From Lentibacillus sp. CBA3610 (GTDB taxonomy: Bacteria > Bacillota > Bacilli > Bacillales > Amphibacillaceae), in the NCBI RefSeq assembly GCF_013373365.1, contig NZ_CP035925.1, positions 2,976,001 to 3,040,000 on the forward strand: a stretch of 64,000 nt of DNA, read 5' to 3'. The notes under the pieces were generated by a model. It worked only from the letters and a program-made list of their open reading frames with translations, made no database searches and was not told the DNA's origin. The number at the start of each line of letters is the position of its first letter. Positions within the stretch are counted from its first letter, which is position 1. The position numbers were made by a program, and so were the translations under genes. Positions 10,547 to 40,937 of the stretch are shown piece after piece.

Positions 10547-10580
10547 GAAAAAACTGCCCCGATAATAGCCTCAGGACAGT
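10547..10580 (-). terminator. Terminator of the parMR-like operon
   Basis: On the minus strand ACTGTCC pairs with GGGCAGT (one G-U pair) and is followed by six T (A run 10548-10553 on the plus strand). It lies 14 bp after the ParR-like stop codon. Confidence 0.65.
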
Positions 10581-10593
10581 TATAATGGTTCCA

Positions 10594-11115
10594 TTATTTA
10601 TTCATTTTAGAGAAAAAATCTGCCAGCGGATCTTCATTCGGATCATCCGGTTCTTCATGGTTTGCATCATGTAAATTATCTAAATTATCAACGTCGACCG
10701 CATCCAAATCAGGCTTGGGTTCTGAAACAGCTTCTTCAGGTTTTGGTTCTTCATATGGCTCAGCTTCCATAGGCTGGTTGCCGTTCAACGTAGACATAAT
10801 CGCTGTCGCCCGCATCGGATCCTGCAGCAGTTGATAAACGATTGTCCCAATCAGTGCTTCCGATTGTTCGTGTTTCAGCCAATTTTTTTGTTCCTTGGTA
10901 AGCTGACGGGGAAGCGGAATTGTGATCGTTTCGCGTTCCCGGGCAAATGTTTCATTGACACCGTTCAGAACATATTGGGCAATCTGACTGGAAAAGTTGC
11001 GGCGTTCGGTTTCTTTCAGTTTCTGCAGCTGTTTCAAAAGATAATCGGGTGTATCGGACGGAATGCGGAATGTAATCGACTGTCCGCGTTCAATACTTTT
11101 TTTAGATCCTTGCAT
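10594..11115 (-). CDS. ParR-like partition adaptor (ribbon-helix-helix)
   Basis: A 173-aa protein encoded 9 bp after the ParM-like gene. The N-terminal segment QSITFRIPSD followed by two helices (about residues 12-55) looks like a ribbon-helix-helix DNA-binding fold. A second strand-helix-like block starts at ETITIPLPRQL (about 62-100). The rest is a long acidic linker rich in E, P and D, ending in ADFFSKMNK. That conserved-looking tail could be the peptide that docks on the filament end, as known for ParR. The ATG follows AGGGTGA. No family name is certain; the call rests on position and architecture. Confidence 0.65.
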   Translation of the reverse strand: MQGSKKSIERGQSITFRIPSDTPDYLLKQLQKLKETERRNFSSQIAQYVLNGVNETFARERETITIPLPRQLTKEQKNWLKHEQSEALIGTIVYQLLQDPMRATAIMSTLNGNQPMEAEPYEEPKPEEAVSEPKPDLDAVDVDNLDNLHDANHEEPDDPNEDPLADFFSKMNK

Positions 11116-11124
11116 GGTATCACC

Positions 11125-12297
11125 CTACTCTTCTTTCGTTGCGGCTGCTTCCTTTGCCTCGGCCTGGGTCTGTTTATTCACAACATCCATAATCAGCTTA
11201 TAATAGGCATTGGCCATCATCCAAATGCTTTCTTGTTCGTCTTCAAAGAAATCAATGTTAAAGCCGTCCAATTTGTTATTAAGGGCTTTAATATAATCTT
11301 TCAGTACAGCTGATCCGCCCCCGACGAAATAGCAAATTTCCGACTGGGAATTTTTTTGCCAGACATTACGGAGATTCCGGTATTCCTTTTTGGCCAGTTC
11401 CAGCAAAACGCGGTCCGTGATATCATGGATGTTCGTCCGGCTGCCTTTGACCATAATGTGATGGCGGTCGTTTTTTCGTGTGATGATATCGACAACATCA
11501 CGGCGGCTGTCCAGTTCCACACCATGCCTTGTCCTGATTTCATCGCGGATCTCTTCCAATGATTCAGCAACACCGAGTGGAAACCCCTGCGCTTTATCAT
11601 CATCAACATTCCGGTTGCGGATAACGGCTATATCGGTTGACAGTCCGCCAATATCCTGAATCAAAATTTGCTTATCGATCAGTTCTTTATTAATCACGTT
11701 CAATTCATTATCCATAATCAGGTTCACGTATGCGGCAAAGCCTTCCGGGTATACCTTGACTTCATCAAATTTAATGTTCACTTTTTTGCCCTGATGTTGG
11801 GGTGTAACCAGGAATTCAATTTGGTGCACCGATCCGAGCAGATGTGAGCGATAGCCTACATCTTTCCCTTCCTTCACTTCTTTTAACGGTAGTCCGGTTC
11901 CAAGGGTGTAATTTGCATCGATTACACCATTCTTGCCTTTCTTAAAGGTATTACTGCTGACAGCGTCCAATGCAATTGATGCAAACAGCATAATTAATGT
12001 CTGGTCTTCCTCGGATTTGCTGCTTCCCTGGTCAAGTTCAGTGGAGTTATTCGTTTTCGTTGCCAGTGTGCCGACACGATACACCGCATTGTTCTCCTCA
12101 AGTGCAGGGGAGTGAACCCGGATGTGCAGGTTATCAATCGGATCTTTCTCATCCAGGTCTTCAATACCGATGACCGGCCTGTCCTCAATATCCTGTGCAA
12201 TAACATTCGGTATGTAATAGGCATTTTCCATTTTGCCGAAATTTGCTTTGACGGCATCGTTTCCTACATCGACTGCTGCTATTCTTGAATCTTTCAT
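11125..12297 (-). CDS. ParM/StbA-family actin-like ATPase
   Basis: A 390-aa bacterial actin of the ALP/ParM type. All three nucleotide-pocket motifs are present: phosphate-1 DVGNDAVK (10-17), phosphate-2 DIGGLSTD (215-222) and the adenosine motif VGGGSA (325-330). Length is typical. It probably polymerises into filaments that move DNA bound by the adjacent ParR-like protein. The start ATG follows GAGAGGAG. A cluster of TTGTGTAC repeats lies directly upstream, and terminators flank the pair, so it is an insulated cassette. The neighbours (rlmN, DUF421) are chromosomal and no replication gene is seen, so a chromosomal role or an old integration is inferred. Confidence 0.85.
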   Translation of the reverse strand: MKDSRIAAVDVGNDAVKANFGKMENAYYIPNVIAQDIEDRPVIGIEDLDEKDPIDNLHIRVHSPALEENNAVYRVGTLATKTNNSTELDQGSSKSEEDQTLIMLFASIALDAVSSNTFKKGKNGVIDANYTLGTGLPLKEVKEGKDVGYRSHLLGSVHQIEFLVTPQHQGKKVNIKFDEVKVYPEGFAAYVNLIMDNELNVINKELIDKQILIQDIGGLSTDIAVIRNRNVDDDKAQGFPLGVAESLEEIRDEIRTRHGVELDSRRDVVDIITRKNDRHHIMVKGSRTNIHDITDRVLLELAKKEYRNLRNVWQKNSQSEICYFVGGGSAVLKDYIKALNNKLDGFNIDFFEDEQESIWMMANAYYKLIMDVVNKQTQAEAKEAAATKEE

Positions 12298-12401
12298 ATT
12301 ATGATGCTCCTCTCGAGAAAAATAGATTTTATACTTTTTCTATTAAAGCCCCTTTACTAATAGGATAATCTTTTTCATCATAATACGCAATCAGACTTTT
12401 T

Positions 12402-12563
12402 TTGTATTCTTTTTTGTTTTCTTGTATACATTTATCGCACACGTTGTTATATCAGTTTGTGTACGTTTCTGTTTACTTGAATACAGTTTTGATCACTTTT
12501 GTGTACTTATTGTGTACATGTGTGCAATTTTGTGTATAAAAATTTCTCCTTCAGTGAATGTAC
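12402..12563. repeat. TTGTGTAC repeat cluster, candidate parC centromere/operator
   Basis: Copies of TTGTGTAC or close variants begin at 12402 (TTGTATTC), 12422 (TTGTATAC), 12457, 12477 (TTGAATAC), 12499, 12510, 12518 (ATGTGTGC), 12530 (TTGTGTAT) and 12556 (GAATGTAC). The three exact copies are at 12457, 12499 and 12510. Several spacings are near 11 or 20-22 bp, i.e. one or two helical turns. The cluster lies upstream of the actin gene, where par centromeres are usually found. Confidence 0.6.
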
Positions 12564-12566
12564 AAA

Positions 12567-12600
12567 TAAAAAAATACGCCCCCTTTTATGGGACGCATTT
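12567..12600 (-). terminator. rlmN terminator
   Basis: On the minus strand AATGCGTCCC pairs with GGGGCGTATT (one G-U and one mismatch-tolerant pair) and is followed by TTTTT. It begins immediately after the rlmN stop codon. Confidence 0.7.
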
Positions 12601-13837: not shown

Positions 13838-15544
13838 CTAAAAATACTTCGCAGCCAACAGTTCCGCCGTTCGTGCAGCAAGCGCCTGTGTCGTCAACGT
13901 CGGATTTGGACCACCAAGCGAATTGTTATCAGCACTGTTATCGGCAACATAAAGCCGCTCCACCTGATAGGCTTCACATGATGGATCAACGACATGCCCC
14001 ATTCGCATTGTGCTTTGCAGGTGGATGTAGTAATTCGCTGGCATATCCGCCCGGTGAACGCTGTTGGCACCTGCCTGCTGTAATATATCGGTGGCGATTT
14101 TGTTTAATTGTTCCCGTCTTTCTTTCGATTTTTTGGTTGGCTCATAGTGAACGCGTGGTACGGCGCCATGCTCATCCTGAATATGCGGGTCCAGTTCAAC
14201 CCGGTTATGAAATGCTACCTCATCATCGGTAATGGCAGAAAGAGTGAGCGTCCGGCTGTAGCCCTCCATAGCATTGGCCAGTTCAGAACCGACAAGTCTG
14301 CCGCGCTGATCCCACATGTCTGAACCGTCGTGATGAAGGCTGTTATAGCCAAATTGACTGAATCCAAACACTTGCATAGCTGATAGCCCGGGACTCTCCC
14401 CGATATTTTCAATCATGCCGAGACCAGGATAATCAAGCCGTGCGCCTGAGGTATGCCCAACAAATGGATTCGTCGTGCGACTGCCGACAACCTCCATTAA
14501 CGTTTCTTCATCAAAAGTCCCTGTTATCAAATCAAAGTAATGATTCGTCAAACCTCGGCCGACCCAAGGATTATATGGCAAATCAGAGTTCAGCCAAAGA
14601 CGTGGCGTTTCAATAACCCCGCCCGCCATCACGACGACGTTCGCACGTAATTCCTCCATTTCACCTGTCCACGTATCCCGGATCCTGACGCCTGTCGCCC
14701 GCTGATTTCCACTGGCATTAAATTCTGTTAAAACCTTTGTCACAAATGTATTCGGCCTGAACGACACATTTCCGGTCTTCATTGCCAACGGTACATAGCT
14801 AACCGTTGTTGACCGTTTTGCCATTTTTTCAAGCGTCGGGCCATACGGGCACCCCTGACCACAATGACCGCTTAATGTACAGCCTTCCATATGGCTGATT
14901 TCTTCCATCGAATAGTTTGGATCCATTAAATGTTCATTCGGCGGCAAAATAGCATTTGGCTGCGGACGGTATCCGCTGGTCGTAACATCTAACGTTTTAT
15001 TCAGAGAAAAACCGGCCTTTTCCGCCCCATAGTAAAAAAGTGCTTCCTTCGTAGTGGTTGGTGCAAATTCAACGGGTAATGTCGCTTCCACTTTTTCATA
15101 GTAGGGAACGAGGTCATCGTAATTAATCGGCCACTCATTATCAATCGCTTCCGGAAAAGCCCGTAGTGAGTTGGCATAGTAATGCAGAGTTCCCCCTCCA
15201 ATGCCTGAACTTTGCCATAACAACGACCGATCAGGAACGTTCCGGTACCAGGGCGCGCGTCTCCTGTCAGCCGCGCCCCAACGGAATTTGCCGCTGACCA
15301 GATCATCCATATCATTTTCAAGTCTTGTTATCTGCTGGCGATAAAGTGACCCATCCAAATCACCTGGATCAGAGCTTTCTTTGGCAACACCGCGATTCTT
15401 ATTGGGTTCAGGCCATTTTTTATTGCCGTACCAGGGGCCTGCTTCTAGAACCAGCACATTGATACCTGATTCGCCAAGCTCTTTGGCCACCACAGGTCCG
15501 CCAGCACCAGCTCCGATTACAATCACATCAGCATCTATTTTCAT
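13838..15544 (-). CDS. GMC-family dehydrogenase, large subunit (pair 1)
   Basis: A 568-aa FAD-dependent GMC oxidoreductase resembling the large subunit of gluconate/fructose/FAD-glucose dehydrogenases. The FAD Rossmann motif GAGAGG is at 11-16, the ADP-ribose acid in LVLEAGPW about 32-38, and the C-terminal GMC block runs from STMRMG to NPTLTTQALAART. Cys222, Cys228 and Cys232 form a CX5CX3C motif with the spacing remembered for the 3Fe-4S cluster of FAD-dependent glucose dehydrogenase. Its start overlaps the small-subunit stop by 4 bp (ATGA). Probably oxidises a sugar, sugar acid or alcohol; no cytochrome subunit is nearby, so the electron acceptor is unknown. Confidence 0.85.
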   Translation of the reverse strand: MKIDADVIVIGAGAGGPVVAKELGESGINVLVLEAGPWYGNKKWPEPNKNRGVAKESSDPGDLDGSLYRQQITRLENDMDDLVSGKFRWGAADRRRAPWYRNVPDRSLLWQSSGIGGGTLHYYANSLRAFPEAIDNEWPINYDDLVPYYEKVEATLPVEFAPTTTKEALFYYGAEKAGFSLNKTLDVTTSGYRPQPNAILPPNEHLMDPNYSMEEISHMEGCTLSGHCGQGCPYGPTLEKMAKRSTTVSYVPLAMKTGNVSFRPNTFVTKVLTEFNASGNQRATGVRIRDTWTGEMEELRANVVVMAGGVIETPRLWLNSDLPYNPWVGRGLTNHYFDLITGTFDEETLMEVVGSRTTNPFVGHTSGARLDYPGLGMIENIGESPGLSAMQVFGFSQFGYNSLHHDGSDMWDQRGRLVGSELANAMEGYSRTLTLSAITDDEVAFHNRVELDPHIQDEHGAVPRVHYEPTKKSKERREQLNKIATDILQQAGANSVHRADMPANYYIHLQSTMRMGHVVDPSCEAYQVERLYVADNSADNNSLGGPNPTLTTQALAARTAELLAAKYF

Positions 15545-16125
15545 GTCTTCACCTCCGCCATAGTTATTAAAAAACCGCGGAAATCACGGTAACCTAAAGA
15601 TACTCCTGGATAGCCAACCTGCTGCCAGCTCAGAGGGAACCATTCAAGGCAGCGATCTTCTGGAGGGCAGAGCCGCGTTGACCCATATGCCGACCATTCT
15701 GAATAATAACCAAACATGGAAAAGCGATTTAAGGCATCCGTGACATGTTTGACCATGCCGGCATTATTTTGAAACGGGGATGGTAATAAGTAAAGGTCGA
15801 CTTCAAGGTTCTCGAGTGCGGATAACGTTCGAATGCGATCTTCCCGGGAAAGACACGAAAACATCCGTCCGCCGGGAAAAAGACTTTGCGAATAGGCTTG
15901 TGCCTGATGTGTCATCACAAGCTGTGTTGCAGCAGCGTCCAACATAATCGCTGTGGGGTAACTAAGCGGGATAGTAAAGTGATGTAGTTGCTGCTGAACC
16001 GATACGTAATGATCCAACGCATAGATGATGTAGTCATGAACCCCCATATCTGTATAAGGAAATCCATTCGCTTCCTGTACTGATGGTACTAAGGCATCTG
16101 TCAGCGCCTGAAAACTCGCATGCAC
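15541..16125 (-). CDS. Gluconate 2-dehydrogenase subunit 3-like protein (pair 1)
   Basis: The 194-aa small-subunit-like partner of the GMC enzyme. It matches the plus-strand paralogue at 16412 along its length (shared NNA.MVKH and FGYYSEW.AYGSTRL segments). No Tat or Sec signal is visible, unlike many exported relatives, so the complex is probably cytoplasmic. A GTG start at 16125 has no ribosome-binding site. The reading frame stays open upstream to an ATA codon at 16155 that follows a strong GAGGGGGGTGA, so true initiation may be at AUA. The gene is translationally coupled to the large subunit through ATGA. Confidence 0.75.
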   Translation of the reverse strand: MHASFQALTDALVPSVQEANGFPYTDMGVHDYIIYALDHYVSVQQQLHHFTIPLSYPTAIMLDAAATQLVMTHQAQAYSQSLFPGGRMFSCLSREDRIRTLSALENLEVDLYLLPSPFQNNAGMVKHVTDALNRFSMFGYYSEWSAYGSTRLCPPEDRCLEWFPLSWQQVGYPGVSLGYRDFRGFLITMAEVKT

Positions 16126-16155
16126 ATATTCGTGTGAATAGCTATTAAAACTTAT

Positions 16156-16411
16156 GACGTTTCACCCCCCTCACATTTAACAAACTATTACTAACGTATT
16201 GTTCAGCTTCCTCTTATATGACCAGATTTCGAAAACTTTCCCTCCCGTTATTTTCAGAATGTATCGTTAAGAAAAATAAGAAATACATTTGGCCAAATAA
16301 CATACAGGGGGCACTTAACGCATAGTATTTAAGGGTGTATATGTATCTAAATTATCTACGTTCTATCACCGTCCTATCGATGGTGATAAATTTTACTTCA
16401 GGAGGGATCAT
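16156..16411. promoter_or_regulatory. Shared divergent promoter region of the two GMC operons
   Basis: This 256-bp AT-rich interval lies between two head-to-head paralogous operons and must hold both promoters. No consensus -35/-10 pair stands out. A strong ribosome-binding site AGGAGGG (16399-16405) serves the plus-strand gene and GAGGGGGGTGA serves the minus-strand gene. Confidence 0.4.
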
Positions 16412-17029
16412 GTGAACCAAATGGAACACAAGCCATACGCCCAGCTGCCCCACAAAAAAGCCACCTTCATGGCGTTTGTCGACGCAGTCATTCCACCACC
16501 CTTGGGAGGCGTGTCTATTCAGCTGGATGACTACCTGGTGTGGATATTGGATCATCACATTTCGATGCAGGAAAAGTTGAGTGTCAAAACGGTCCTTTTA
16601 TCAACGCCAGCAGCTGCGATGCTTGATGCATCCGCCACACAACTCATGGCACTCAAAGGTATGAAAACTTCGGCTGATTTGCCCACTTATCCTCAAGAAG
16701 GGGCATTTGCAGCGCTTTGGCCCAGTGACCGGTTTGAAGCCATTCGTTTATTGGAGACCCTTCAAATTGATTTGGAAGCCCTGCCCTCCCCGTACCGTAA
16801 CAACGCCGACCTGGTCAAAAATATCGTGACATTTCTTCATCAAATGGCTATGTTTGGCTATTATTCAGAATGGTTTGCTTATGGTTCGACACGACTGGCT
16901 TATCCTGAAGATCGTGTGCTTGAAGGAAGATCCTTCACATGGGATTTGGTGGACTACCCTGGTGTTTCATACGGCTATCGTGCACTTCGGGGATTTCCGG
17001 TTGTCGAATTTACTGAAAAGGAGATATGA
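16412..17029 (+). CDS. Gluconate 2-dehydrogenase subunit 3-like protein (pair 2)
   Basis: A 205-aa paralogue of the protein encoded at 15541-16125, with the same AVIPP, LDASATQLM, YRNNADLVK and FGYYSEWFAYGSTRL landmarks. It starts at GTG after AGGAGGG with good spacing (the ATG two bases earlier runs into a stop). No signal peptide is seen. It is followed 3 bp later by the GMC large-subunit gene, so the two are made as a pair. Its role is inferred from the family: it likely supports folding or electron transfer of the flavoprotein. Confidence 0.78.
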   Translation: MNQMEHKPYAQLPHKKATFMAFVDAVIPPPLGGVSIQLDDYLVWILDHHISMQEKLSVKTVLLSTPAAAMLDASATQLMALKGMKTSADLPTYPQEGAFAALWPSDRFEAIRLLETLQIDLEALPSPYRNNADLVKNIVTFLHQMAMFGYYSEWFAYGSTRLAYPEDRVLEGRSFTWDLVDYPGVSYGYRALRGFPVVEFTEKEI

Positions 17030-17032
17030 TAA

Positions 17033-18742
17033 ATGAGCAGAGATGCAGATGTGATCATCATTGGGGCCGGTGCTGGCGGTGCCGTTGCTGCCAAAGAGCT
17101 TAGTGAATTGGGAATCAACGTCCTTGTTCTGGAGGCAGGTCCTTGGTACGGCAATCGCCAATGGGAAAAACCGAACCAGTATCGTGGCCCTGTCAGCAGT
17201 TCAAATCCTGATGACTTGGACGTTAACCTTTTGCGGCAGCAATATACCCGATATGAACATACGATGAATGATATTGTTGCCGGACGCTTCCGCTGGGGTC
17301 CGGCAGATCGCCGCCGGCCGACATGGTACCGAAATATCCCGGAACAAGGAATGGCCTGGCAAAACGCCGGTGTCGGCGGGACAACACAACATTACTGGGC
17401 AAACTCACCACGTGCCTATAAAATGGCGATTGATGACGTCTGGCCGATTTCCTATCGGGAATTAATCCCCTACTATCAAAAAGTTGAAGATACACTGCCT
17501 GTCCGACCTGCCCCTGCCACACCAAAAGAAGAATTGTTTTACTACGGAGCCGAAAAAGCGGGCTGGTCCTTGCTTGATACCTTAAATCCTGTTTCGCCCG
17601 GCTACCGGCCACAGCCAAATGCCATTCTGCCCCCTAATGAACGGTTAATGGATCCTCATACGAGTCTATATGAATTATCCCACATGGAAGGCTGTACACT
17701 GGCCGGGCATTGCGTCAATGGCTGTCCATATGGGTCATCCATTGATAAAGTGGCCAAACGCTCAACCCACGTCAGTTATGTCCCTCAGGCACTCAGGACT
17801 GGGAATGTCGAAATCCGGCCCAATACATACACAACTAAAATTCTAACCGATCGTCATCCAAATGAAGGTATCATCGCCAACGGTGTCCAATTTCGGGATA
17901 CATGGACAGGTGAAACCGGGGAATTGTACGCAAAAACCGTTGTCATGGCGGCAGGTTGTATCGAAAGTCCACGGCTGTGGCTTAATTCGGATCTGCCCCA
18001 TAATGATTGGGTTGGTCGCGGTCTGACAACCCATTATTGGAATTGGGTAACCGGCGTCTTCGATGAAAAAGATCTTATGCGTATACTGGGGCAGAACCAT
18101 GTTGATCCAAATGTCGGTCACACATCCGCTGCCCGATTGGACTATCCGGGACTTGGCGTTATCCAGCCATCCGGACTCAGCCCTGGTTTGTTTTCATCGT
18201 TAACGTTTGGGTTCAGCCAAAGCGGGGATGCCTCCCATAACAAGCTGTCACCTGACACTCCGTGGGATTTAGAGGGAAGGTTAACAGGAAATGAATTGCA
18301 AAAATGGATGGACAATTACCGAAATACGTTAAGCTTTTTAATCCTTGCCGATGACCAGCCACATAAACAAAACGGTGTCACGGTTGATCCTTTGATAAAA
18401 GATGAACATGGACCGGTGCCTGTCGTTCAATATAAAGCCAGCAAGCAAGATGCCATGAAACGATATGAGTTAGCCAGAATCACCACAGACATCTTGCGTA
18501 AAGCCGGAGCGAAGAAGGTGATCAGGACTAACTGGCCCGCAACCTTATTTGCCCATATGGAATCCACCATGCGAATGGGCTATGTTGCGGACAGCAATTG
18601 TGAAGCGTACCAGGTCAAGCGGCTGTTTATCGCTGACAACAGCGTCCACTATAATGGGATTGGCGGACCGAATCCCACGATGACGACACAAGCGTTGGCT
18701 ACCAGAACAGCCGAAAAATTGGCGATGAAATATTTTGGCTGA
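17033..18742 (+). CDS. GMC-family dehydrogenase, large subunit (pair 2)
   Basis: A 569-aa FAD enzyme strongly similar throughout to the 13838-15544 product. GAGAGG is at 11-16; the CX5CX3C Fe-S motif is Cys221, Cys227 and Cys231; the C-terminal block ESTMRMGYV...GGPNPTMTTQALATRTAE is conserved. The start follows GAAAAGGAG. Differences from pair 1 cluster around residues 340-430, which could change substrate specificity. The head-to-head arrangement suggests inverted duplication. Substrate and electron acceptor are unknown; no cytochrome c subunit gene is in the window. Confidence 0.85.
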   Translation: MSRDADVIIIGAGAGGAVAAKELSELGINVLVLEAGPWYGNRQWEKPNQYRGPVSSSNPDDLDVNLLRQQYTRYEHTMNDIVAGRFRWGPADRRRPTWYRNIPEQGMAWQNAGVGGTTQHYWANSPRAYKMAIDDVWPISYRELIPYYQKVEDTLPVRPAPATPKEELFYYGAEKAGWSLLDTLNPVSPGYRPQPNAILPPNERLMDPHTSLYELSHMEGCTLAGHCVNGCPYGSSIDKVAKRSTHVSYVPQALRTGNVEIRPNTYTTKILTDRHPNEGIIANGVQFRDTWTGETGELYAKTVVMAAGCIESPRLWLNSDLPHNDWVGRGLTTHYWNWVTGVFDEKDLMRILGQNHVDPNVGHTSAARLDYPGLGVIQPSGLSPGLFSSLTFGFSQSGDASHNKLSPDTPWDLEGRLTGNELQKWMDNYRNTLSFLILADDQPHKQNGVTVDPLIKDEHGPVPVVQYKASKQDAMKRYELARITTDILRKAGAKKVIRTNWPATLFAHMESTMRMGYVADSNCEAYQVKRLFIADNSVHYNGIGGPNPTMTTQALATRTAEKLAMKYFG

Positions 18743-39623: not shown

Positions 39624-39881
39624 ATGGCAACAAAAGACATTCGAGAGTTAGCTCATCAAATTTTAGATGAATTGGAAGAAGAAGAGTTGTCTGAAGCCAT
39701 TAAAGTGATACGCTATATAAGGAACCAAAATGTTGAAGCCCAAGAAACGGGCGATAAAGGTTTTCCTATTGAAACACCAACCGATAAAGAGCTTAAAGCT
39801 ATAAAGCAAGCGAGGAGAGAATTCGCTAACGGCGAAAGTTATTCTCACGAAGATGTTTTTGAGGAAGAAGATTATGTATGA
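39624..39881 (+). CDS. Antitoxin of a RelBE/ParDE-type module
   Basis: An acidic 85-aa protein. The N-terminal helix ELAHQILDELEEEELSEAIKVIRYI resembles antitoxins of the DUF2281/RelB-like kind, and the C-terminus is disordered and acidic (EDVFEEEDYV). The ATG follows GGAGGTGA. It overlaps the RelE-like toxin gene by 8 bp, the usual antitoxin-first order, so it probably binds the toxin and represses the operon. Confidence 0.75.
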   Translation: MATKDIRELAHQILDELEEEELSEAIKVIRYIRNQNVEAQETGDKGFPIETPTDKELKAIKQARREFANGESYSHEDVFEEEDYV

Positions 39882-40137
39882 CTTGAAATATTCTAAACAA
39901 GCAATGAAGTATATAAAAAAGCAGGATAAGCCAACAAAGAATAGAATTCAAAAAGCATTGCTCACCTTAGCTGAAAACCCATATCAGAGAGGGCTTCTGG
40001 ATATTAGCTCACTTCAAGGTGCAGACAATGCTTTTCGTTTGAGAGTTGGAGATTTTAGAATTGTTTATGAAATTCATGATAAGGAGCTTTTGATATATAT
40101 TGTTGCAGCCGGGAGTAGGGGAGATGTATATAAGTGA
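39874..40137 (+). CDS. RelE/ParE-family toxin
   Basis: An 87-aa basic protein. MYDLKYSKQAMKYIKKQ at the N-terminus, NPYQRGLLDIS and the core FRLRVGDFRIVYEI are typical RelE/ParE strands, ending with a GSRGDVYK tail. RelE-type proteins cleave mRNA at the ribosome; ParE-type ones target gyrase. Sequence alone leans to RelE (basic residues with Arg in RVGDFR). ATG 39874 lies within the antitoxin gene. Confidence 0.82.
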   Translation: MYDLKYSKQAMKYIKKQDKPTKNRIQKALLTLAENPYQRGLLDISSLQGADNAFRLRVGDFRIVYEIHDKELLIYIVAAGSRGDVYK

Positions 40138-40200: not shown

Positions 40201-40323
40201 GTGTTATGTTTTTAAATGGGTCATATTGTGACCTATAGTGAAGGAAATTTCTATATAAGAACAGATAATATTAAAACATGGTATAATATTTTTAAGATCA
40301 ATGAAGAATGTGGGGGATGTGTT

Positions 40324-40611
40324 GTGTTATATGATGTTCTTCAAGAAAAGCGTGATGTGATTTTGAAAATAGCGGATGAACAGGGTATTCAAAATGTACA
40401 GATTTTTGGTTCTGTTGCAAGGCTAGAGGATGGATCTGCAAGTGACCTTGATTTACTTGTCGAATTTGAAAAGGGAAGAAGTTTGTTTGATTTGATTCGC
40501 TTTAAACAAGAAGTTGAAGACCTGTTAGACGTTAAGGTTGATGTTGTAACAGAAAACTCAATTCATTGGAGTATGAGGGATAAGGTATTAAACGGAGCAA
40601 TTCAATTATGA
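40324..40611 (+). CDS. MNT-domain nucleotidyltransferase, antitoxin of HEPN/MNT
   Basis: A 95-aa minimal nucleotidyltransferase. Catalytic Gly29-Ser30 and the two Asp of the DLD motif (41, 43) are in IFGSVARLEDGSASDLDLLVEF. In HEPN/MNT modules this protein AMPylates the HepT toxin and so silences it. A GTG at 40324 after GGGGGATG is preferred; a longer ORF from 40216 lacks support. It overlaps the hepT-like gene by 4 bp. Confidence 0.85.
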   Translation: MLYDVLQEKRDVILKIADEQGIQNVQIFGSVARLEDGSASDLDLLVEFEKGRSLFDLIRFKQEVEDLLDVKVDVVTENSIHWSMRDKVLNGAIQL

Positions 40612-40937
40612 AGGATGACAATGTTTATTTGCGTCATATTTTGGAGTGTATAGAAAATATTGAATCATACATCCCCAATGGCGAAAGTGACTTTTTCAGT
40701 TCAAAATTAATACAGGATGCGGTAATTCGCAATCTGGAAATTGTCGGAGAGGCAACTAAACGTATATCACAGGATTTTCGGAAGCAACATCCCCAATTGC
40801 CGTGGCGCGAAATGGCTGGATTAAGAGATATTCTAATTCATAATTATTTTGGGGTGGACAATGGGATTGTTTGGAATGTGATTGAAAAAGAAATACCAAC
40901 ATTAAAAGAACAAATAACAGATTTACTAAATGGATAA
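40608..40937 (+). CDS. hepT: HepT-like HEPN RNase toxin
   Basis: A 109-aa HEPN (DUF86) toxin. The RNase motif RX4HXY is present as Arg73, His78 and Tyr80 (RDILIHNY). It pairs with the overlapping MNT gene through ATGA. Typical members are tRNA- or mRNA-cleaving toxins neutralised by polyadenylylation of the Tyr. It sits directly after a RelBE-type module, making a small defence/TA patch. Confidence 0.87.
   Translation: MKDDNVYLRHILECIENIESYIPNGESDFFSSKLIQDAVIRNLEIVGEATKRISQDFRKQHPQLPWREMAGLRDILIHNYFGVDNGIVWNVIEKEIPTLKEQITDLLNG

Follow-up and report, generated by a model that had tools for sequence, protein, structure and literature searches.

The window, by which we mean the whole 64,000-base stretch of DNA analysed here from Lentibacillus sp. 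CBA3610, comprised bases 2976001-3040000 of a single contig of 4,035,571 bases. A single contig of chromosome size (4.04 Mb) places the cassette on the chromosome. Read in the direction of transcription on the minus strand, an iteron array was followed by a gene for a ParM-like actin ATPase and then by a parR-like gene, with the following features in window coordinates:

12572-12600, minus strand: terminator-like stem of the upstream gene rlmN, parting rlmN from the cassette
about 12399-12538, minus strand: parC-like iteron array, with clear hexamers at 12424-12525; the units of about 10-11 bp, near TGTACACAAA, contain palindromic GYNNRC hexamers
12345-12397 (approximate limits), minus strand: predicted parMR promoter, between the array and parM
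11125-12297, minus strand: parM-like actin ATPase gene, 390 aa, with an Alp7A-like C-terminal domain
10594-11115, minus strand: parR-like gene, 173 aa, 9 bp downstream of parM; conserved N-terminal part (about residues 11-112), acidic variable linker and conserved C-terminal tail like DPLxDFFSxMNK
10552-10581, minus strand: terminator-like stem 3' of parR

An actin-like ATPase, an adjacent ParR homologue and a short-repeat array beside the operon (the predicted parC) identify the locus as a type II (ParMRC) partition cassette, encoding an actin-like protein and not the ParA Walker ATPase motor that characterizes ParABS. The initial annotation, which had described a complete type II cassette on an apparently chromosomal segment, was therefore correct on both counts, as parM, parR and the array all lie on the chromosome-sized contig.

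ParM possessed the Pfam domains Alp7A_like_C (E 1.2e-34) and ALP_N (E 2.1e-10), both exceeding their cut-offs, scored 119.8 bits against the Alp7A-like actins of PF22128 (cut-off 22), which makes it a member of that domain family, and matched a partition-protein family in PHROG (E 8.7e-43). In an alignment of 42 sequences (that of the window, 39 of the 80 loci described below and two viral contigs) the mean column identity of ParM was 84%, and the DVGND, DIGG.ST and GGG stretches, which we take to be the actin nucleotide motifs, were invariant or nearly so, in agreement with the intact actin first annotated. A structure model of ParM built from 42 close relatives was poor (mean pLDDT 53), so its fold matches are supportive only: the top Foldseek matches included 4xhn (ParM of B. 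thuringiensis), 5ec0 (Alp7A) and 8x1i (Dh-cParM1) at E values of 8e-14 to 6e-9, with TM-scores of about 0.4 to solved structures, and the likeness to these proteins is that of the fold of a low-confidence model. Searching the PDB by sequence yielded no chain matching ParM and nothing useful. A second, distant actin-like gene with 25% identity was situated on the same chromosome (G000:C1:1447320-1447970, locus L002), with Pfam matches to MreB-like_C and, weakly, ALP_N; matches at 22-26% identity were also seen in two other genomes of the genus.

ParR had no match in Pfam, NCBIfam or PHROG. The residue pattern of its N-terminal part may be ribbon-helix-helix (RHH)-like; a structure model (mean pLDDT 63) gave helices at residues 24-36 and 41-59 and no strand, and a fold search with this model found no relative. 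Conservation across 40 sequences extended over the first 110 residues and was followed by the acidic variable linker, and the tail F[FL][ASD]xMNx was situated at the C-terminal end in 80/80 loci. In plasmid R1 the C-terminus of ParR binds ParM, and by analogy the conserved tail is likely to be the ParM-binding part of the protein. When we took 10 of the 77 plasmid records that matched ParM and compared the gene next after each parM cousin (a comparison of 10 sequences), eight aligned with ParR at E <= 4e-15, so that the ParR-like partner noted at 9 bp from parM proved to be a homologue of plasmid partners as well as an open reading frame in the right place. Upstream of parM, a conserved block AAAAAAGTCTGATTGC...TTATTCTATT shared by six Lentibacillus-type sequences points to a parMR promoter between the array and parM, yet a consensus promoter scan reported none in this interval. 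Terminator-like stems in the region numbered three, against a mean of 2.5 in shuffled sequence; since shuffles give nearly as many, the flanking terminators of the initial annotation are favoured by their placement after parR and after rlmN, and not by their number. PADLOC defence models matched neither ParM nor ParR, and no RNA families or tRNAs were found in the window.

The neighbours scanned were rlmN upstream, a DUF421 protein, a Na+/H+ antiporter family protein, a BCCT transporter and a GMC oxidoreductase, the ordinary chromosomal company that had first been described, and no phage or conjugation families were evident among the window ORFs read. Elsewhere in the window, two divergent pairs at 13838-18742, each consisting of a GMC oxidoreductase-like gene and a small partner, looked alike by eye (the first large gene was the one scanned), and a low-GC stretch (about 36%) held two toxin-antitoxin-like small gene pairs at 39624-40137 and 40216-40937, RelE/ParE-like and nucleotidyltransferase/DUF86-like as judged by eye from the translations. 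We evaluated the surroundings of parM in the best 80 of 428 relatives obtained by a genome scan, which included Lentibacillus, Virgibacillus, Oceanobacillus, Halobacillus, Thalassobacillus, Pontibacillus, Pseudalkalibacillus, Alkalihalobacillus, Metabacillus, Jeotgalibacillus, Rossellomorea, Sediminibacillus and others. parR came directly after parM in 80/80 of these loci and in 46/46 further loci, many of them from the same species, and the gap between the two genes was 5-19 bp in 79 of the 80 loci and 80 bp in one. Within neighbourhoods of up to 6 kb on each side (L066 and L070 had short flanks), parM and parR were the only genes common to all 80, the next most common neighbour being found in 31/80. 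The synteny that the initial annotation proposed to check was thus complete for the pair itself, but did not extend to the genes around it.

Unlike the neighbours, the array was retained. On average the 330 bp preceding parM contained 5.7 copies (range 1-10) of the palindromic 8-mer TGYNNRCA in 80 arrays (L070, which had no upstream sequence, was omitted from these counts), compared to a mean of 0.27 (maximum 6) in 1322 other windows from the same loci, substantiating the upstream repeat cluster of the initial annotation. The region upstream of parM was enriched 85-115x in the 7-mers TGTATAC, TGTGTAC and TGTACAC relative to the remainder of these loci. In the pooled set, GYNNRC hexamers recurred at 8, 12, 20 and 42 bp, of which 20 and 42 bp approximate whole helical turns. 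Scored on the 8, 12 and 20 bp spacings, which were picked from the same pooled data and of which the TGYNNRCA density is independent, 79/80 upstream regions beat at least 198/200 shuffles, the exception being L062, whose value was reached by 13/200 shuffles. Across 53 genomes, a strict double-iteron pattern matched 71 places: 39, from 29 genomes, were no more than 1.5 kb from parM, and the other 32, from 27 genomes, lay outside that range. The reversed control gave 49 forward matches, 11 of which came from one genome. No match was found in 12/53 genomes, including the window's own (G000), whose array is too degenerate for this pattern. Searching G000 for a second array with the pattern GTNNACNNGTNNAC gave 25 scattered forward places without a cluster (96 in the reversed control), which is a weak test because the pattern also misses the window's own array. 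Judged by the patterns used, the evidence supports one array per chromosome and lends no support to a second.

Within the genus, a parM orthologue with at least 87% identity was found in 10/11 other genomes; the remaining genome (G003, 99% complete) had no orthologue, providing a natural comparison of presence and absence in one genus. At the level of the family, 78/159 genomes matched, the window's own included, 73 at 72% identity or above and five weakly. Conservation in related genomes, another check proposed at the outset, reached across the order, where orthologues occurred in 201/397 genomes and 55/135 genera at E <= 5.1e-189 (identities of at least 74% among the matches listed), and 196/397 genomes had no parM match at that threshold. 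Of the 52/398 genomes of a class sample that matched at 1e-30, 24 carried orthologues, 16 of them in the order and eight outside it (73-77% identity), and the other 28 matches were all at 42% identity or below; nothing fell between 42% and 72% in the fully listed family and class searches. A second parM match was present in six genomes of the order (G331, G333, G470, G500, G501 and G510). Searches with PF22128 found nothing in 8/8 tested genomes without the gene, nor in 14 control genomes, B. subtilis included. The parM copy of G157 contained two internal stop codons, which, together with absence from many genomes, indicates that the cassette can be lost. The word 'isolated' in the initial annotation is hence misleading, as this is a conserved locus that roughly half of the genomes sampled from the order possess, on the same side of oriC wherever its position was determined.

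Plasmid copies, for which a search had also been suggested, were not recovered as close relatives: all 77 matching plasmid records were below 60% identity, with the best-ranked at 43.5%, and phage records gave three weak matches to ParM. We built a tree of 93 ParM proteins (that of the window, 80 loci, two viral contigs and 10 of the 77 plasmid records), in which the window grouped with Lentibacillus (100/99). Genus labels changed 25 times on this tree, compared to a minimum of 16 and 65.5 in shuffles, and the scatter of certain labels (Virgibacillus, Pseudalkalibacillus, Alkalihalobacillus, Metabacillus and Bacillus) may stem from how the strains were named or from some transfer. Nine plasmid rows formed a long branch of their own (100/99) and the tenth was very divergent; because the plasmid branches are very long, we make no claim about the root. 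Two contigs from a viral collection (IMG/VR; L128:4549-5691 and L129:4995-6137, 86 and 116 kb) fell inside the chromosomal rows (94/98, not starred), their ParM having 67% identity with the chromosomal protein. Their nesting among chromosomal genes makes it likely that the gene has passed into or out of a mobile element at least once, and the contigs possibly represent a phage-plasmid that captured or donated parM; tblastn found no parR in either. In L128, parM was followed by a weak pectate-lyase-like gene with a beta-helix gene beyond, and preceded by a gene for a long, weakly HerA-like P-loop protein. The initial statement that such modules are normally plasmid- or phage-borne therefore suits the cousins, but not the present clade, apart from these two contigs.

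We placed dnaA in 56 hand-picked genomes of 1-4 contigs with a parM match in the family or order searches; two of them, G418 and G459, were set aside because their parM coordinates were not listed, and the set omits other low-contig matching genomes such as G002, G058, G089, G154 and G158. In 53/53 genomes parM was situated left of oriC and transcribed in the opposite direction to dnaA, at a median distance of 144 kb (range 36-871 kb), although the rounding of genome sizes to 100 kb, except for G000, G701 and G775, leaves an uncertainty of about 50 kb in some distances. The distance from parM to dnaA in the window's genome was 226 kb. In G203, which was counted apart from the 53, parM was about 70 kb left of oriC, and in two genomes outside the order it was found at 51 and 55 kb on the same side and in the same orientation, with ParR present. 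This gave a total of 56/56 genomes from 17 families, which, being related, do not amount to 56 independent events. As controls, two genes of the same window, flotillin and MrpA, were placed in the same 53 genomes. parM was within the first quarter of the left arm in 51/53 genomes, compared to 13/49 for the best matches of MrpA and 2/20 for flotillin. Flotillin was found in 20 genomes and left of oriC in six of them, and four orthologues at 81-83% identity were at 0.63-0.99 of the right arm. MrpA, an impure control in that many best matches at 49-60% are probably paralogues, was found in 49 genomes; it was on the left of oriC in 43 of these, mostly far beyond the distance of parM, and ran opposite to dnaA in 12. 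The left side alone is not unusual, since MrpA also favoured it; nearness to oriC combined with orientation was not shared by the control genes, though two controls are few.

Taken together, these genes almost certainly constitute a long-resident chromosomal ParMRC cassette. What it does there is less secure. We give roughly even chances to a chromosomal type II (actin) cassette that has descended mainly vertically near oriC and serves as an accessory system for segregating or positioning the origin; taken by itself, the proposal that its target is the origin region of the chromosome carrying it stands at even or marginally lower. With the array and both genes in place, a mechanism can be drawn by analogy with the plasmid ParMRC model, as set out in the available text of PMC8242196. 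ParR dimers would bind the array to form a segrosome, and the conserved ParR tail would contact ParM filaments; ATP-driven polymerisation of ParM between two newly copied arrays could then push the sister origin regions apart, or hold them apart. ParR may in addition repress its own operon, since the array abuts the probable promoter. Rather than replacing ParABS, the cassette would operate alongside it, and, more speculatively, could be of importance at high salt or during sporulation.

Genes close to oriC frequently stay where they are, and the constant location might thus be a product of conserved gene order, whereby a plasmid module, domesticated long ago, inserted left of oriC in an ancestor and was inherited vertically, with a position that has no function and a filament that does something else, or little. 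MrpA was situated left of oriC in those 43/49 genomes, and in five g24 genomes it was near parM, 317-478 kb left of dnaA, as such inertia would predict. However, the immediate neighbours of parM and parR were not kept, flotillin moves freely, MrpA is generally much farther out, and the array, the ParR tail and the ParM motifs have all been conserved. We regard this explanation as unlikely, if deserving of serious attention. Alternatively, the locus might act against plasmids, its chromosomal array and ParR/ParM titrating or capturing incoming plasmids with a related parMRC. Plasmids of the same bacterial families do carry cousin cassettes whose ParR is homologous and whose hexamers are similar, and Pseudalkalibacillus hwajinpoensis has both kinds, in different strains. 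Crosstalk nonetheless looks limited, because the best-ranked plasmid ParM is only 43.5% identical and the plasmid ParRs are 29-41% identical with different tails; an anti-plasmid or incompatibility locus would not predict linkage to the origin either, nor was there a PADLOC match, and we consider such a role improbable. Equally improbable is a cytoskeletal role, in cell shape or in placing other cargo, with ParR mainly an autoregulator acting through the array. The array lies against the probable promoter, as autoregulation would predict, and Alp7R is reported as a regulator of Alp7A expression, but the conserved ParR tail and the phased array of many units are more centromere-like than a simple operator, and no other gene travels with parM and parR. 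A recently integrated plasmid or phage remnant, the case that the initial annotation named as overturning its reading, is scarcely credible and was rejected, for although such modules are usually plasmid-borne and two viral-collection contigs carry a ParM at 67% identity, the contig is of chromosome size, orthologues are spread across the order, the tree broadly follows genera, the position is constant and all plasmid matches are below 60%.

Returning to an accessory role at the origin, the presence of the cassette in roughly half of the Bacillus-like bacteria sampled, together with its constant side of oriC in every genome where it was placed, suggests, from comparison of genomes, a second, actin-driven means of moving the chromosome. 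In its broadest form, in which many Bacillales have a second, actin-driven chromosome segregation system whose centromere-like array left of oriC binds ParR and is moved or anchored by filaments of ParM, we hold this proposal tentatively, at somewhat less than an even chance. No gene of this kind is seen in B. subtilis, which may be why such a system would have been overlooked. An order-wide ParMRC cassette with its own array on one side of oriC makes this role testable in halophilic bacilli, and the genus itself offers 10/11 other genomes with the cassette and G003 without it.

Among known systems, plasmid cassettes of Bacillaceae, Paenibacillaceae and Alicyclobacillaceae (Alp7A-type and others annotated as ParM/StbA) have the same gene order as the chromosomal cassette, and their ParM is homologous in 10/10 cases (29-43% identity), as is ParR in 8/10, with GYNNRC hexamers upstream in most; a plasmid cousin has its Pfam domains in common with the chromosomal ParM. 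The plasmid hexamers are mostly 11-12 bp apart, and the plasmid ParRs are shorter (109-151 aa) and in 8/10 cases end in an acidic tail unlike the chromosomal one. Since the tails differ, cross-reaction between the chromosomal pair and its plasmid counterparts may be prevented. ParABS (Soj/Spo0J/parS) resembles the cassette in being an origin-proximal chromosomal partition system, but its motor is a Walker ATPase whereas that of the cassette is an actin, and it has several parS sites, compared to the one array here. Two ParB-family genes, presumably Spo0J and Noc, were found in 12/12 tested genomes, one of which lacked parM, and in the window's genome they were about 9-11 kb from dnaA. As ParB-family genes coexist with parM, the cassette is an addition to ParABS and replaces nothing.

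The closest precedent is the chromosome-encoded ParMR (cParMR) of Ali et al. 2025 (PMC12270681), represented by Dh-cParM1, Cb-cParM and Bt-cParM. The available text of that paper lists several chromosomal ParMs, two of them in Bacillus tropicus, and terms such chromosomal genes occasional; it describes Bt-cParM as conserved on several Bacillus chromosomes, so part of the present clade may already have been noted there, and it states that no conserved cparC was identified among Clostridium strains. A literature search, which covered few subscription papers or preprints, found no report of origin linkage, a conserved array or an order-wide clade. The cassette resembles cParMR, as far as the available text of PMC12270681 describes it, in being a chromosomal ParM-ParR pair with genus-level conservation in hosts that also have ParA and ParB. 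Chromosomal ParMs were thus already known; set against the same text, what appears new here, and distinguishes this cassette from cParMR, is its constant side of oriC and linkage to it, the conserved array and an order-wide clade.
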